Shown here piece after piece: positions 58,756 through 63,999 of a DNA stretch of 64,000 nt (position 1 is its first letter; the number at the start of each line of letters is the position of its first letter). Below the pieces are notes generated by a model, which saw only the letters and a program-made list of their open reading frames with translations, did no database searches and had not been told where the DNA came from. Source of the DNA: an uncultured bacterium (GTDB lineage: Bacteria; Acidobacteriota; Aminicenantia; Aminicenantales; Saccharicenantaceae); NCBI GenBank assembly GCA_937920515.1, contig CALEUG010000027.1, positions 1 through 64,000 on the forward strand. Reading direction: 5' to 3'. Position numbers and translations under genes: made by a program.

Positions 58756-60885
58756 TTGGCGTCCAGGTATTTTAAGAAACTAACCACCAGGAACACCTTT
58801 CTGACCCTGGCCTTTTTTGCCCTGCCTTTCCTCATCCTGCTGGTGGTAGTCGACCTGCATATTTCCAGGTTGATAAAAAACCAGGTCACCTCTCAGCTGG
58901 CCGGGGCGGTTCAGGATAACCTGAAAACCATCAAGCTTTTTCTGGAAGACCGGCTGACCGACCTGGGCTCGGTGGCTCGACTGAATTGCCAGGACCTCGG
59001 CTGCCTGGACGAACAGGAAAAAATCTACCTGAACCTCATCCGGGGAAAAAAATGGTACGATTTCATCTTCGTTGCCGACCTTCAGGGTAACCTGGTCAGG
59101 TCCTACAATCGCGAGCTCACAGGGAACATATCCACACGTGATTATTTTCAGGTCTCGTCCGGCGGGAAACCTTTTGTCTCCGATATTTTTTATTCTGAGA
59201 TAGCCGGGGCCAACGTCATGATCATTTCCCAGCCGGTTCTGGGCCTGGATGGTCAAATTCTGGGGGTTCTGGGCGCCTCGCTCAACCTGAACTATCTTTA
59301 CAGCTTGATTTCAGACCTGCGCCTGGGCAGGACGAGCGAGCTGTTCTTGTTGAGCCGGGAAGGCCTCATCCTTTCCCCCACCAAGCTGGGAGCCTTTCCC
59401 TTTGCTGAAAAGGCTTTCTCCGGCGACCTCAATCCCCACAGCGGAGAAAGCGGAGTAATGGTTCACCTGGATTACCGCGGGGAAAGAGTTCTCTGCGCCT
59501 ACCAGCTTCTGCCCGGAACCAGCATTTATTTAGCCTCGGAAATGGACCTGCGGGAGGCCCTGCTGCCCGTCCGGCGTTTCAACCGCATTATCTTCTATTT
59601 CTTCCTCCCTTCCTTCATTTTTCTGGTCATCATATCCAACCTCTATTCCAGGCGGGTTACAGGACTGGTGCAGAAGCTGACGGCCAACCTGGCCCGGGCC
59701 CTGGACGAATGCCGGGAGCGCCGTCAGCAGCTGGACCATATCAACCGGGAACTGGAAAACCGGATTCTGGAAAGCCAGCACCTGGCTGCTGAGCTTCAGC
59801 TGTCAGAACAGTACATCCTCCACCTTATAGACAGCATTTCGCTGGGACTGGCCGGTACAGATTTGGAGGGAAGGATTGCTAAATACAACAAGCATTTCCT
59901 GGCCCTGTTCGCAACCGGAGAAATCAGAAAGGGTGAAATCCTGTTTGAAGCCATTCCGGCCCTGAAAGACCCGGAAATCCTGGAGTCCTTCCAGACCACG
60001 GTTAAAGATGCTACCACCCGGCAGCTGACCGCCAGGAAAATCGACCGGGGTCATGGCGAAGAGTATTTCAATCTGGCCTTCTTCCCCATTACCAACGGAG
60101 AAAAACGCCTGCTGGGGATAACCATCCTGGTCGAAAATGTCACCGACAAAGAAAAGCTCCGGAACAAACTGGCTGAATACGAGAAGCTGTCGGCCCTGAG
60201 CCAGCTGGCCCTGGGTGCTGCCCACGAGATAAACAACCCCCTTCTGGGAATTTCTTCCTACCTTGAAATCCAGATGGAAGAAACAACCGACCCCCAGAAG
60301 AAACAGCAGATGGAAGTGGTCCTGGAGAATGTCTACCGGATATCACAGACCATCAGGGGCTTGCTGGACTTCGCCCGTCCCGCTCCCCCGCGATTTACCC
60401 GGATTAACCTGAATCAGGTGGTCCAGGATACCCTGGCCTTCCTGAGCCACCAGCCCATTTTTAAGAAGATAGAGGTTGAACAGAAGCTCTATCCACAACT
60501 GCCACCCGTCACCGCCGACCTCAACCATATCCGCCAGGTTCTGACCAATATTTTCATCAACGCCGCCCAGGCCATGCCCGGAGGGGGCCGTCTGACTGTA
60601 TCCACCTCCAAGGTCAAGTTTGAGGATTATGTCCAGATTTCCATCGCCGATACGGGCATTGGTATTCAACCAGAAGACCTCAAGAAGATCTTTGACCCTT
60701 TCTTCACCACCAAGAAGAGCCAGGGCACCGGACTGGGTTTGAGCATCAGCCTGTCTTACATAAAAAGCCATAATGGAGATATCCAGGTCCAGAGCCAGCC
60801 CGGAGCCGGAACCACCGTAACTATAATCCTGCCCATCAGGCAAAAAGGCCGGCTGGCCGGGAAAGAAGAGGAGATCATAAGTTGA
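58756..60885 (+). CDS. Sensor histidine kinase with Cache and PAS domains
   Basis: This 709-residue membrane kinase starts at TTG with GGAG nine bases upstream. The N-terminal helix (about 17-35), a periplasmic double-Cache domain (about 40-275) and a second membrane helix (about 278-297) make it a sensor of small external molecules; Cache domains often bind amino acids. A coiled coil and PAS domain (about 355-470) lead to the HisKA phospho-site AAHEINNPL (His490), N-box NIFINAAQAMPGGG, DTGIGI and GTGLGLSIS. It overlaps the NtrC-type regulator (TTGA), its obvious partner. The HEINNP box is the class found with NtrC-family regulators. Confidence 0.93.
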   Translation: MASRYFKKLTTRNTFLTLAFFALPFLILLVVVDLHISRLIKNQVTSQLAGAVQDNLKTIKLFLEDRLTDLGSVARLNCQDLGCLDEQEKIYLNLIRGKKWYDFIFVADLQGNLVRSYNRELTGNISTRDYFQVSSGGKPFVSDIFYSEIAGANVMIISQPVLGLDGQILGVLGASLNLNYLYSLISDLRLGRTSELFLLSREGLILSPTKLGAFPFAEKAFSGDLNPHSGESGVMVHLDYRGERVLCAYQLLPGTSIYLASEMDLREALLPVRRFNRIIFYFFLPSFIFLVIISNLYSRRVTGLVQKLTANLARALDECRERRQQLDHINRELENRILESQHLAAELQLSEQYILHLIDSISLGLAGTDLEGRIAKYNKHFLALFATGEIRKGEILFEAIPALKDPEILESFQTTVKDATTRQLTARKIDRGHGEEYFNLAFFPITNGEKRLLGITILVENVTDKEKLRNKLAEYEKLSALSQLALGAAHEINNPLLGISSYLEIQMEETTDPQKKQQMEVVLENVYRISQTIRGLLDFARPAPPRFTRINLNQVVQDTLAFLSHQPIFKKIEVEQKLYPQLPPVTADLNHIRQVLTNIFINAAQAMPGGGRLTVSTSKVKFEDYVQISIADTGIGIQPEDLKKIFDPFFTTKKSQGTGLGLSISLSYIKSHNGDIQVQSQPGAGTTVTIILPIRQKGRLAGKEEEIIS

Positions 60886-62246
60886 AAACCTTCTCGGTGA
60901 TGCTGGTTGATGATGAAATCCTGACCCTCAGCAACCTGAAAAAAGCCCTGGAAAAGGAGGGCTACGAGATTATCCTGGCTGAATCGGGGGAAAAGGCCCT
61001 GGACCTGCTGGAAAGCAGCCGGCCCCACCTTATTCTGCTCGACCTGGTCCTGCCCGGTATTTCCGGTCTGGAGGTCCTGAAAAAGGTCAAGGAAACCGAC
61101 CGGGAAATCATAGTCATCATGATGTCGGCCTACGAAATACTGGAAAAAGCGGTGGAAGCCATGAAACTGGGCGCCTATGATTATCTTCTGAAACCCTTCA
61201 AGCTCAGCGAACTCAAAGCCACCGTTCAGAGGGCCCTGGAAACCCTGTCCCTGAGGCTGCGCTTCCTGGACGAATTTGAAAAACAGAAGCAGCGATATTA
61301 TTTCGGAAAGATAGTGGCCCAGAGCCGGAAAATGAAGGAGGTGCTGGACATGGCGGCCAGGGTGGCCCAATCCGACCGGACCACGGTGCTTCTCCAGGGA
61401 GAAAGTGGCACCGGCAAGGAACTGCTGGCCCGGGCCATTCATTACCACAGCCCGAGGGCCGAGAAGCCAATAGTGGCCATCAACTGCGCGGCCATACCGG
61501 AAAATTTGCTGGAGAGCGAGCTATTCGGCTACGAGGCCGGCGCATTCACCGACGCCCGGAAAAGAAAAATCGGCCTGCTGGAAAAAGCGGACGAGGGCAC
61601 GGTCTTCTTTGACGAAATCGGGGATATGTCCCTTGCCCTCCAGGCTAAAATCCTTCGGGTGCTGGAAGACGGAACTTTTGTCAGGCTGGGCGGCTCGCAA
61701 CCGATAAAAGTCAATATCCGGGTCATGGCCGCTACCAACCGCGACCTGGTTAAAGAAACCGAAAAAGGAAATTTCCGACAGGACCTTTTTTACCGGCTCA
61801 ACGTCGTGCCCATCACCATCCCCCCCTTGCGGGAAAGAAAAGAAGATATAATTCCCCTTGTCCTGTTTTTTATGGAAGAGTTCAACCGGGAAATCAAAAG
61901 AAACTTCAAGGGACTGGAGCCGGAAGCGGCTCAGGCCCTGCTGAACTACTCCTGGCCCGGTAACGTTCGAGAGCTGAGAAATACCGTGGAAAGGGTAATG
62001 TCCCTGTACCAGTCAGAGAATATCCAGTTGCAGTTCCTACCCCAGGAAATAAGGCAGGAACTGAATCTTCCGGAAGACAAGGTCATGTCGGCTCTAACCG
62101 GGAACTGGCCGACACTGGAAAATCTGGAAAAGGCCTACATCGCCAGAGTCCTTGAACATACAGGCAACAACAAGAGTCAGGCTGCCAGAATCCTGGGCTT
62201 AAACCCGGCCACCCTTTACCGCAAAATCAAGTCCTGGAAAAAGTGA
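60882..62246 (+). CDS. NtrC-family sigma-54 response regulator
   Basis: This 454-residue regulator starts at TTG after GAAGAGGAG, overlapping the kinase stop. The receiver domain has the acidic pair D10-D11, the phospho-acceptor Asp54 (LLDLVLPG) and Lys104. The AAA+ domain has GESGTGKE (173-180) and the sigma-54 contact loop GAFTDA (220-225). The Fis-type helix-turn-helix lies at the C-terminus (NNKSQAARILGLNPATLYRKI). It should activate sigma-54 promoters. One such promoter, with candidate binding sites, follows within 85 bases. Confidence 0.95.
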   Translation: MKTFSVMLVDDEILTLSNLKKALEKEGYEIILAESGEKALDLLESSRPHLILLDLVLPGISGLEVLKKVKETDREIIVIMMSAYEILEKAVEAMKLGAYDYLLKPFKLSELKATVQRALETLSLRLRFLDEFEKQKQRYYFGKIVAQSRKMKEVLDMAARVAQSDRTTVLLQGESGTGKELLARAIHYHSPRAEKPIVAINCAAIPENLLESELFGYEAGAFTDARKRKIGLLEKADEGTVFFDEIGDMSLALQAKILRVLEDGTFVRLGGSQPIKVNIRVMAATNRDLVKETEKGNFRQDLFYRLNVVPITIPPLRERKEDIIPLVLFFMEEFNREIKRNFKGLEPEAAQALLNYSWPGNVRELRNTVERVMSLYQSENIQLQFLPQEIRQELNLPEDKVMSALTGNWPTLENLEKAYIARVLEHTGNNKSQAARILGLNPATLYRKIKSWKK

Positions 62247-62249
62247 TTT

Positions 62250-62277
62250 TTGCATATTGCAATATTGCAACTTGCAA
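62250..62277 (+). promoter_or_regulatory. TTGCAA hexamer array, probable activator binding site
   Basis: Four hexamers, TTGCAT at 62250 and TTGCAA at 62257, 62265 and 62272, lie 7, 8 and 7 bases apart. The middle two form the perfect 14-bp palindrome TTGCAATATTGCAA (62257-62270). The array lies about 55-80 bases upstream of the sigma-54 -24 element, directly after the regulator's stop codon, the expected place for an enhancer. Confidence 0.55.
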
Positions 62278-62328
62278 TAACCACACCGGTTTCTGATATC
62301 ATCTCATTTGTTTTCAATAAGATAATTC

Positions 62329-62344
62329 TGGCACGACAATTGCA
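62329..62344 (+). promoter_or_regulatory. Sigma-54 promoter (-24/-12)
   Basis: TGGCAC (62329-62334), five bases, TTGCA (62340-62344) is an exact match to the sigma-54 consensus TGGCAC-N5-TTGC. It drives the genes at 62368 and 62638, next to an NtrC-family activator gene. Confidence 0.88.
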
Positions 62345-62367
62345 CTATTCAAGGGGTGGAGGCCTGA

Positions 62368-62625
62368 ATGAAAAACATATTACCACTGGCTCAAAATCAA
62401 AAAGAGCTGGAAGAAGAAAAACAAACCGAACAACAAAAGGCCAGGATTATTAAATTCCCCGATATCCAGTTAATGGAGAAAGCTGAACCGGAGCACGGCA
62501 AATCATCCCGGGTCAAAATAACAACCCACTACCTTTATTATCGCGACAAAAAAATACCCATAAGCCGCTTTGAGAAAGCCGGGTACGGAAAGCTGCTCCG
62601 ATTGCTGGTCAAAGAAATCTCTTAA
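62368..62625 (+). CDS. 85-residue unknown protein, sigma-54 regulated
   Basis: This small soluble protein has a ribosome binding site (GGGGTGGAGG) and a clear position between the sigma-54 promoter and glutamate dehydrogenase. The first 35 residues are charged and probably helical (KELEEEKQTEQQKAR). The C-terminal half (TTHYLYYRDKKIPISRFEKAGYGKLLRLL) looks folded. No cysteines or signal peptide, and no family recognised. It could be a regulator or a partner of glutamate dehydrogenase, in analogy to small proteins of nitrogen control. That is speculation from position only. Confidence 0.7.
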   Translation: MKNILPLAQNQKELEEEKQTEQQKARIIKFPDIQLMEKAEPEHGKSSRVKITTHYLYYRDKKIPISRFEKAGYGKLLRLLVKEIS

Positions 62626-62637
62626 CAAGGAGCCCCT

Positions 62638-63930
62638 ATGCCGGATAAAGCCAGAGTCCATTATATACATCCCATTCCCGAGGCCAAGGAGTACGACCCG
62701 TTTTTTGAGGCTACCCTGCAATTTGAAAAGGCAGCCAATTTCCTGGACCTTGACCCCTGGATTTACCAGCGCCTGAAATACCCGGAAAGAGAATTGACGG
62801 TCCATATCCCGATTACCATGGATGACGGACGGGCCGAAATCTTCACCGGTTTCCGGGTGCAGCATTCCACGGTCAGAGGTCCGGCCAAGGGAGGAATCAG
62901 GTTCTCGCCCGATGCCTCCATCAGCGAGTGCAAGGCCCTGGCCACCTGGATGACCTGGAAATGCGCGGTGGTCGACCTGCCCTTCGGCGGGGGGAAGGGA
63001 GCGGTTATCTGCGACCCGCTCAAGATGTCGGAAAACGAGCTGAAAAAACTCACCAAAGAATACACCCTGGCCATAAGAGACATCATCGGACCCTTCAAGG
63101 ACGTCCCGGCTCCCGACATGTTTACCAACGCCCAGACCATGGCCTGGATTGCTGACGCCTACAGCCAGGCCTGCGGCTACCTGGAACCGGCTGTGGTCAC
63201 CGGGAAACCGGTCCATCTGGGAGGTTCTCTCGGCCGGGCCATGGCCACCGGGACCGGACTGTTTTTTGTCCTGGAAGAGGCGCTGAAATACCTTGGCCTG
63301 AATTTTGAGGGACGAACCGTGGCCATTCTCGGCTTTGGCAACGTCGGTTCATCGATAGCCAAGCTGGTGCATAATGCTGGTTGCCGGATTATCGCCATCA
63401 CCGATATCTTCGGTGGTATCTACAGCGATAAAGGAATTGACCCCTTTGAGCTGGAAAAACAGGTGAAACAGACTGGCTCGGTGGTTAATTTTCCGGGGAC
63501 AGAAGCCATCGATAATGACAGCCTGATTGCCCTGGACTGCGACATCCTGATCCCGGCTGCCACCGAAGGCCAGATTCACCGGGGCAACGCCGGCCAGGTC
63601 AAGGCCAGGATAATCCTGGAAGGAGCCAACGGTCCAACCACCACCGAGGCCGACAGCATCCTGGTGGACAAAGGAGTGCTGGTCTGCCCGGATATTCTGG
63701 CCAACGCCGGCGGGGTGACCGTCTCCTACCTGGAATGGGTCCAGGACCTGCAGCGCTTCTTCCTGAGCGAAGAAGAAGTCACAGAGAAGCTGGAAAAGAA
63801 AATGAAAAAGGCTTTCCAGGAAATCATCGACCTGATGGAAAAGCACAAGCTGCCGATGAGAGAAGCGGCCTATGTCCTGGCGGTCGGCAGAGTAGCTGAA
63901 ACCCTCAAAGCCTTAGGCCGAGCGGCCTGA
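62638..63930 (+). CDS. gdhA: Glutamate dehydrogenase (Glu/Leu/Phe/Val family)
   Basis: This 430-residue oxidoreductase has the family length. It has the active-site lysine segment (GPAKGGIRFSP; PFGGGKGAV), GKPVHLGGSLGRAMATGTG and the Rossmann motif GFGNVGSSIAK of the nucleotide domain. It interconverts glutamate and 2-oxoglutarate plus ammonium. The acidic residue following the Rossmann fold (AITDIFGGIY) suggests NAD preference, by inference. An AAGGAG lies upstream of the ATG. The local sigma-54 promoter and NtrC pair imply control by an external amino acid or nitrogen signal. In a peptide fermenter the catabolic direction is likely. Confidence 0.95.
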   Translation: MPDKARVHYIHPIPEAKEYDPFFEATLQFEKAANFLDLDPWIYQRLKYPERELTVHIPITMDDGRAEIFTGFRVQHSTVRGPAKGGIRFSPDASISECKALATWMTWKCAVVDLPFGGGKGAVICDPLKMSENELKKLTKEYTLAIRDIIGPFKDVPAPDMFTNAQTMAWIADAYSQACGYLEPAVVTGKPVHLGGSLGRAMATGTGLFFVLEEALKYLGLNFEGRTVAILGFGNVGSSIAKLVHNAGCRIIAITDIFGGIYSDKGIDPFELEKQVKQTGSVVNFPGTEAIDNDSLIALDCDILIPAATEGQIHRGNAGQVKARIILEGANGPTTTEADSILVDKGVLVCPDILANAGGVTVSYLEWVQDLQRFFLSEEEVTEKLEKKMKKAFQEIIDLMEKHKLPMREAAYVLAVGRVAETLKALGRAA

Positions 63931-63972: not shown

Positions 63973-63999
63973 GGGAGGGCGCCAGCCCTCCCCTTTCTT
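63973..63999 (+). terminator. Terminator after glutamate dehydrogenase
   Basis: GGGAGGGC pairs with GCCCTCCC (8 bp, loop GCCA) and is followed by CTTTCTTC at the window edge. The pyrimidine tail may continue beyond it. Confidence 0.6.

Follow-up and report, generated by a model that had tools for sequence, protein, structure and literature searches.

The last part of the DNA analysed here, a stretch of 64,000 nucleotides (hereafter the window; positions 1 to 64,000 of contig CALEUG010000027.1, GenBank assembly GCA_937920515.1) from an uncultured bacterium of the class Aminicenantia (Aminicenantales, Saccharicenantaceae), encodes a sensor histidine kinase and an NtrC/AtoC-type response regulator, followed by a sigma-54 promoter, a small gene and gdhA, the gene for glutamate dehydrogenase (GDH). 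The locus raises the question of whether this two-component pair controls the promoter that lies beside it, and in answer to what signal. Judged by its conservation, the block from kinase to gdhA is a real cassette, and the adjacent promoter is very probably the target of the pair. For the circuit, as distinct from its ligand, we are confident in reading the block as a self-contained, probably one-target sigma-54 switch for gdhA.

The coding part of the block agreed to the base with an earlier note made from the letters of this DNA, including the four nucleotides (TTGA, 60882-60885) that the kinase and regulator open reading frames (ORFs) share, and the 85-residue gene and gdhA that follow the promoter. 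Pfam placed dCache_1 at residues 39-256 of the kinase, HisKA at 481-542 and HATPase_c at 588-695, with a weak PAS-like match, below the Pfam cut-off, in the middle part. The regulator matched Response_reg, Sigma54_activat and HTH_8 and has the composition of an NtrC/AtoC-type protein: a receiver with a phospho-acceptor Asp (Asp54), a sigma-54 AAA+ domain with a GAFTDA loop, and a Fis-type helix-turn-helix (HTH). Of these, the earlier note had named Asp54, GAFTDA and the Fis HTH. The gdhA product contains both ELFV_dehydrog domains and matched the solved GDHs 1b3b (E 1.6e-138) and 1euz (E 6e-131).

The promoter found by the earlier note is an exact match to the sigma-54 pattern, and it is the only TGGCAC-N5-TTGCW site in the window, for which the expected number was 0.06; such a site turned up in 5 of 100 shuffles. 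Genome-wide the same pattern was matched 14 times, versus zero matches for a reversed control pattern. The enhancer proposed earlier, at 62250-62277, is a 28-bp near-palindrome; a pattern derived from it and allowing up to 3 mismatches found no match in 100 shuffles of the window. The locus thus combines a TGGCAY-N5-TTGCW sequence and an upstream enhancer-like element with a genome that has rpoN, the gene on whose presence the earlier note's reading depended and which is encoded elsewhere in the assembly. The enhancer half-motif TTGCANNTTGCAA occurs in the source genome at this locus only, and no stretch lying up to 160 bp from any of the 13 other sigma-54 sites matched the enhancer in more than 17 of 28 letters, versus 25 of 28 here.

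Across 142 genomes of the class, the components of the block were found in the same genomes. Nineteen genomes had a gdhA of this group (71 to 100% identity), and 17 had an orthologue of the regulator. The small gene was matched in 21, a count that fell to 19 once two weak matches were removed; those two, in G072 and G115, were dropped as chance matches (E near 0.005, one in a 522-residue frame and one with a stop). The next GDHs were at most 54% identical and form a separate group, which occurs in the class without the regulator orthologue. Together, the close gdhA, the regulator and the small gene cover 20 genomes, 15 of which have all three. The gaps correspond to contig ends in G010, G014, G015 and G039, with a partial regulator visible at the contig edge in G039 and G014, and to a truncated small gene in G022. 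The kinase was found in 18 of the 20 genomes (14, partial in G091, plus four of six more; in G039 it is on another contig). The neighbourhood comparison that the earlier note had proposed therefore showed the close gdhA, the regulator and the small gene to fall on the same 20 genomes, and the arrangement that would have spoken against a shared circuit, a close gdhA without a full regulator, appeared at contig ends only. The closest named relatives of the regulator came from 14 loci of Candidatus Saccharicenans and other Aminicenantes (95 to 66% identity), after which identity dropped to 46% or less.

We then compared the stretch from regulator to gdhA in 20 loci, 19 from these 20 genomes (the locus is cut in G015) and one, L050, that was not matched to a genome. 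The enhancer had a counterpart in all 20: scored with a consensus derived from the same loci, the best match per locus had 20 to 28 of 28 letters, whereas 300 single-letter shuffles of each locus never gave more than maxima of 17 to 19. The distance from the end of the enhancer to the TGG of the promoter was 51 bp in seven loci and 52 bp in 13, while the stretch from regulator to enhancer varied from 6 to 598 bp; in L011, the regulator stop lies about 30 bp before the enhancer. All 11 letters of the -24/-12 element were present in 17 loci, 10 in two and nine in one. The spacer holds a recurrent site resembling that of IHF, which we scored against the IHF consensus. Its mean best score over the 20 loci was 8.1 of 9, versus 6.99 in dinucleotide shuffles, and was reached in 0 of 400. 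The site scored 8 or 9 in 16 of the 20 loci on either strand. In 15 loci the plus-strand copy scored 7 to 9, with 4 or 5 bp separating its end from TGG; the other five had a better match on the opposite strand. Since the compared loci are related, this recurrence is support for the site and not proof. The source genome has two genes of the HU/IHF family.

Within the genus of the source organism, the block was found in 6 of 19 genomes. The other 13 include two with a distant GDH, and in 11 of the 19 genomes no GDH was found at the search threshold. The gene recO, present in all 19, provided a common reference point: in the six genomes that carry the block, the kinase is the gene next after recO. 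In six congeners without it, a metallophosphatase-like gene, which in the window lies downstream of gdhA, comes 353 to 443 bp after recO, several times with one small ORF between, and in four others recO is followed by a gene like the GH123-type gene downstream in the window. The remaining three had neither of these two genes within the 0.9 to 1.5 kb examined after recO. Completeness is as low as 63 to 82% for some of the genomes of the genus. From these comparisons the block, with the kinase, regulator and promoter as well as the small gene and gdhA, seems to come and go as a unit, its parts being gained or lost together. Because most genomes of the genus yielded no GDH, gdhA probably serves a conditional role, such as oxidizing glutamate or capturing ammonium under an outside carbon signal. 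In two loci, L044 and L045, a second kinase/regulator pair is found within the first 2.1 kb, just upstream of recO beside the gdhA block.

Table 1. Coordinates of the features of the block in the window.
Feature	Position	Strand	Basis
Sensor histidine kinase, 709 residues	58756..60885	+	Periplasmic dCache_1, HisKA (HEINNPLLG), HATPase_c (ORF list, Pfam)
NtrC/AtoC-type response regulator, 454 residues	60882..62246	+	Receiver (Asp54), sigma-54 AAA+ with GAFTDA, Fis HTH
Putative enhancer, 28-bp near-palindrome TTGCATATTGCAATATTGCAACTTGCAA	62250..62277	+	Counterpart in 20/20 compared loci
IHF/HU-like site	62312..62324	+	7/9 consensus letters; 4 bp upstream of -24 element
Sigma-54 -24/-12 promoter, TGGCAC-GACAA-TTGCA	62329..62344	+	Exact pattern match
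Small conserved protein, function unassigned, 85 residues	62368..62625	+	ORF; conserved C-terminal part
gdhA, glutamate dehydrogenase, 430 residues	62638..63930	+	Pfam, NCBIfam, match to solved GDHs
Terminator-like hairpin GGGAGGGCGCCAGCCCTCCC, then T-rich tail	63973..63992	+	After gdhA; pattern match only

Co-occurrence, fixed spacing, a motif unique in the genome and joint absence all indicate that the pair very probably acts on the adjacent promoter. The earlier note had inferred as much, and the comparison strongly supports it, through co-occurrence on the same 20 genomes and the 51/52-bp spacing in every locus. Several observations count against it. The compared genomes are related and their counts are not independent, and the enhancer consensus came from the very loci that were scored with it. 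Kinase and regulator were not recovered whole, and the kinase was not found, in G014 and G015 (89 and 77% complete). Three of the 20 promoters carry one or two mismatches, and GAFTDA deviates from the canonical sigma-54 contact loop. The IHF-like match of the window itself, 7 of 9, equals the shuffle average, and the terminator-like pattern is weak, with two such sites in 700 bases versus 1.0 in shuffles, which is not above chance. Repression instead of activation, or further targets with degenerate sites, might also be compatible with the data.

Two other explanations of the locus have to be set against the one-target switch. The regulator could be a global nitrogen regulator, a true NtrC, with gdhA as one of many targets. 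Nitrogen genes are classic sigma-54 targets, and the regulator does score against the NtrC model (TIGR01818, 431.4 bits) and the AtoC model (NF008469, 447.1 bits), but both values are under the curated cut-offs (558.6 and 714). The best NCBIfam matches of the pair were the AtoS and AtoC models, and none of the models listed, 25 of 82 in the case of the kinase and 25 of 128 in that of the regulator, reached its curated cut-off. Moreover, the kinase has a periplasmic Cache domain, unlike NtrB, which is cytoplasmic; the enhancer half-motif is confined to this locus, the other 13 sigma-54 sites having no such enhancer; and congeners that lack this gdhA lack the regulator as well. We regard a global regulator as very improbable. 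The pair and gdhA could instead be neighbours by chance or through inherited gene order, with gdhA driven by another promoter and the pair controlling something else. Inherited order could account for the adjacency, since the block does keep its position close to recO across several families. Passive neighbours would not be expected to show a rigid enhancer-promoter spacing despite the variable distance to the regulator, nor the uniqueness of the motif, nor joint absence, and we find this explanation very hard to credit.

If the one-target switch is correct, the circuit would work as follows. A ligand bound at the periplasmic Cache domain would set the autophosphorylation of the kinase, and phosphorylation of Asp54 would lead the regulator to assemble on 62250-62277. 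An IHF or HU protein may bend the 51-bp spacer, so that the AAA+ domain could contact sigma-54 through its GAFTDA loop and open the promoter at 62329-62344. Transcription is predicted, from the promoter spacing, to start near 62355; the transcript would yield the small protein and GDH and would end at about 63973-63992.

The 13 further TGGCAC-N5-TTGCW sites in the source genome mostly precede ORFs with signal-peptide-like starts, one of them pilin-like, as read by eye. Sigma-54 has been viewed as a controller of the cell exterior (PMC3162934), with which the exported-looking ORFs behind these sites agree.

The contact loop of the regulator deserves separate mention. GAFTDA, at residues 220-225, stands in place of GAFTGA, and it was found in all 20 rows of Aminicenantales gdhA regulators examined, two of which come from one genome. 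The earlier note had read the loop but not recognized it as a clade-wide variant, and it had mentioned neither the IHF-like site nor the terminator-like hairpin. Among the 66 other loci compared, GAFTGA was the commonest form, with 41 counted by a pattern that misses some rows. In NorR the same exchange frees the activator from its sensor domain, which we take as a lead only. A loop with GAFTDA is also found in a Desulfovibrio activator and is counted among the variants expected to stay active (PMC4641369).

What the sensor detects is less clear than what the regulator controls. The kinase matched dCache_1 well above threshold (PF02743, 78.5 bits versus a cut-off of 45), and a model of the domain had a predicted local distance difference test (pLDDT) value of 88, with Cache sensor chains at the top of the fold search. 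The best solved relative by sequence profile in the PDB was KinD, sporulation kinase D of B. subtilis (4jgo/4jgp), a kinase of another pathway that shares the dCache fold and an Arg at the same position, and whose structure 4jgp holds pyruvate. The KinD Arg is aligned with the first residue of an invariant Arg128-x-Tyr-Phe motif, which is Arg in all 13 kinases compared; of two KinD sequences one has Arg at the corresponding position and the other Ala, the latter being, we presume, a designed ligand-site mutant.

The earlier note had the Cache domain sensing an external amino acid. If that were glutamate or a relative, sensed in the manner of the dCache_1AA family, the circuit would be a glutamate-induced catabolic switch. 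The predicted fold lends this some support, as it matches PctA, PctB, Mlp37 and Tlp3 at scores above or like that of KinD; the fold search ranks amino-acid receptors such as PctA above pyruvate-bound KinD, a ranking that does not decide alone, and the similarity to KinD is remote (E 2e-8, over about half of the domain), which tells against a reading built on KinD. AauSR is a precedent for sensing outside glutamate with sigma-54. Among the residues of the dCache_1AA motif are an Arg that takes the carboxylate (R126 in PctA) and an Asp (D173) (PMC10104139). The Arg position, as we placed it, is retained in 13 of 13 kinases, but the Asp, whose position we set from spacing and from alignments with PctB and PctC, is replaced by Ser in 11, Tyr in one and Gly in one, and the residue aligned with the motif Trp is Tyr in all 13. 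In addition, no amino-acid transporter was found among the five downstream ORFs searched, the upstream genes not having been searched by family. With the motif Asp absent from every kinase and KinD as the best profile match, a carboxylate is, with moderate confidence, a likelier ligand than an amino acid. We put the chances that the domain binds a small carboxylate at about even, and the amino-acid proposal, which the motif did not bear out, we consider rather unlikely.

Searches with the product of the small gene found nothing in Pfam or NCBIfam, even at E values up to 1, and no match on plasmids. Its C-terminal part is conserved, with the consensus YLYYKDKKIPI..F.KAGY.KLL.LLVKEI. A structural model built from 19 sequences was of low confidence (mean pLDDT 66, predicted template modelling score 0.27). 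In G022 (L047, 7547-7690) only some 30 codons of the small gene are left, although the rest of the block, from the kinase and regulator through enhancer and promoter to gdhA, is still there.

Our literature search found no report of a Cache kinase/NtrC-type pair controlling gdhA in this layout, most subscription journals lying outside the search. The earlier note's statement that it knew of no described module in this layout thus held in the literature searched. The logic of the module has close precedents: sigma-54 control of GDH is known or predicted elsewhere, and sigma-54 glutamate sensing is known. The closest precedent for the first is RocR-SigL and rocG, the catabolic GDH gene of B. subtilis, which likewise depends on an enhancer-binding activator acting at a promoter of the sigma-54 type (PMC4348106). 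RocR answers metabolites of arginine (ornithine, citrulline) and has several targets, rocABC, rocDEF and rocG (PMC4348106), in contrast to the membrane Cache kinase, phospho-regulator and one apparent target seen here; the rocG enhancer lies downstream of the gene, going by a reference title in the same paper, versus upstream here. In Geobacter sulfurreducens, microarrays indicated RpoN-dependent expression of GDH, and the passages of PMC2725144 consulted describe no dedicated sensor-regulator pair for gdh. Sigma-54 control of GDH has also been predicted from promoters in Bacillota (PMC12316311). For glutamate sensing, AauSR of Pseudomonas likewise joins a sensor kinase to an enhancer-binding regulator of sigma-54 promoters, in a system linked to glutamate and aspartate outside the cell, but its target is the transporter aatJQMP, with several others regarded as putative; the main text searched contains neither "glutamate dehydrogenase" nor "gdhB" (PMC7962211). 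AtoSC, NtrBC and DctBD share with the present pair the regulator domain order, the kinase core and the sigma-54 mechanism, and differ from it in sensor, target and enhancer, besides the scores under the cut-offs given above. For one Aminicenantes genome, the use of glutamate through GDH has been proposed (PMC4897734).

GDH links carbon and nitrogen metabolism, and the locus suggests that an outside signal switches it on. By the comparative evidence, a periplasmic sensor with one apparent target would be kept and lost as a cassette, which gives the uncultured Aminicenantia a testable regulatory input. The cassette is also a compact sensor unit for sigma-54 promoters, and its putative operator is confined to a defined 28 bp.

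The same design appears to have been assembled repeatedly. In 8 of the 66 other loci (L098, L095, L073, L086, L075, L067, L060 and L069), each carrying a deltaproteobacterial name (Desulfobacteraceae, Syntrophobacteraceae or simply Deltaproteobacteria), the regulator is likewise followed by a gdhA, at a distance of 1.1 to 1.4 kb. Between the two genes are a site that matches the -24/-12 element in 9 to 11 of its 11 letters and a pair of small ORFs that are paralogues of each other. A family search identified dCache_1 in the L098 kinase, with which 10 further kinases of the clade share 56 to 63% identity; the contig ends within the kinase region in L086 and L095. In three loci (L087 7801-13090, L102 7668-13260 and L070 4814-7764), one of them named Abyssobacteria, NuoE-like genes take the place of gdhA after the small-protein pair, as called by family search in L087 and by eye in L070 and L102. 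In L087 and L102, NuoF-like and then GltB-like genes follow, the GltB-like matches being weak. With gdhA or NuoEF/GltB-like genes downstream, the circuit of the deltaproteobacterial clade is also placed on the glutamate node. We claim no palindromic enhancer there, as the 12 loci of the clade that were scored reached at most 10 of 14 pairs.

Sixteen small proteins of this kind from nine loci were aligned. Four deltaproteobacterial small proteins were searched against Pfam and NCBIfam and, like the Aminicenantia protein, gave no match at E values up to 1. Kinship between the small proteins of the two clades was rejected (hhalign probability 0.2 against one of them). Two small-protein families lacking a Pfam or NCBIfam name are now flagged beside glutamate enzymes. 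We built a regulator tree of 64 rows, comprising the window and 63 of 80 loci, with 17 omitted as near-copies, partial or not chosen. The Aminicenantales group formed one clade (100/100), and a branch with support of 97/98, with long branches around it, separates this clade from the deltaproteobacterial one. A single origin of the two gdhA circuits is disfavoured by this branch; that they were assembled separately is the better, though not a sure, reading of the tree. Going further, we suggest as a speculation we would not lean on that a switch placing the glutamate node under an outside signal was built at least twice from different regulator clades, with small protein(s) encoded between promoter and enzyme that would tune GDH or a glutamate-synthase-like complex, the sensor setting both amount and activity, and a carboxylate and not nitrogen serving as the signal.

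The classical large glutamate synthase (GOGAT) was not seen in the source genome, which is 91.7% complete. On contig C11 of this genome, near 89-90 kb (L188 1-2247), we observed a gene for a HoxU-like protein followed by one for a 525-residue GltB-like protein.

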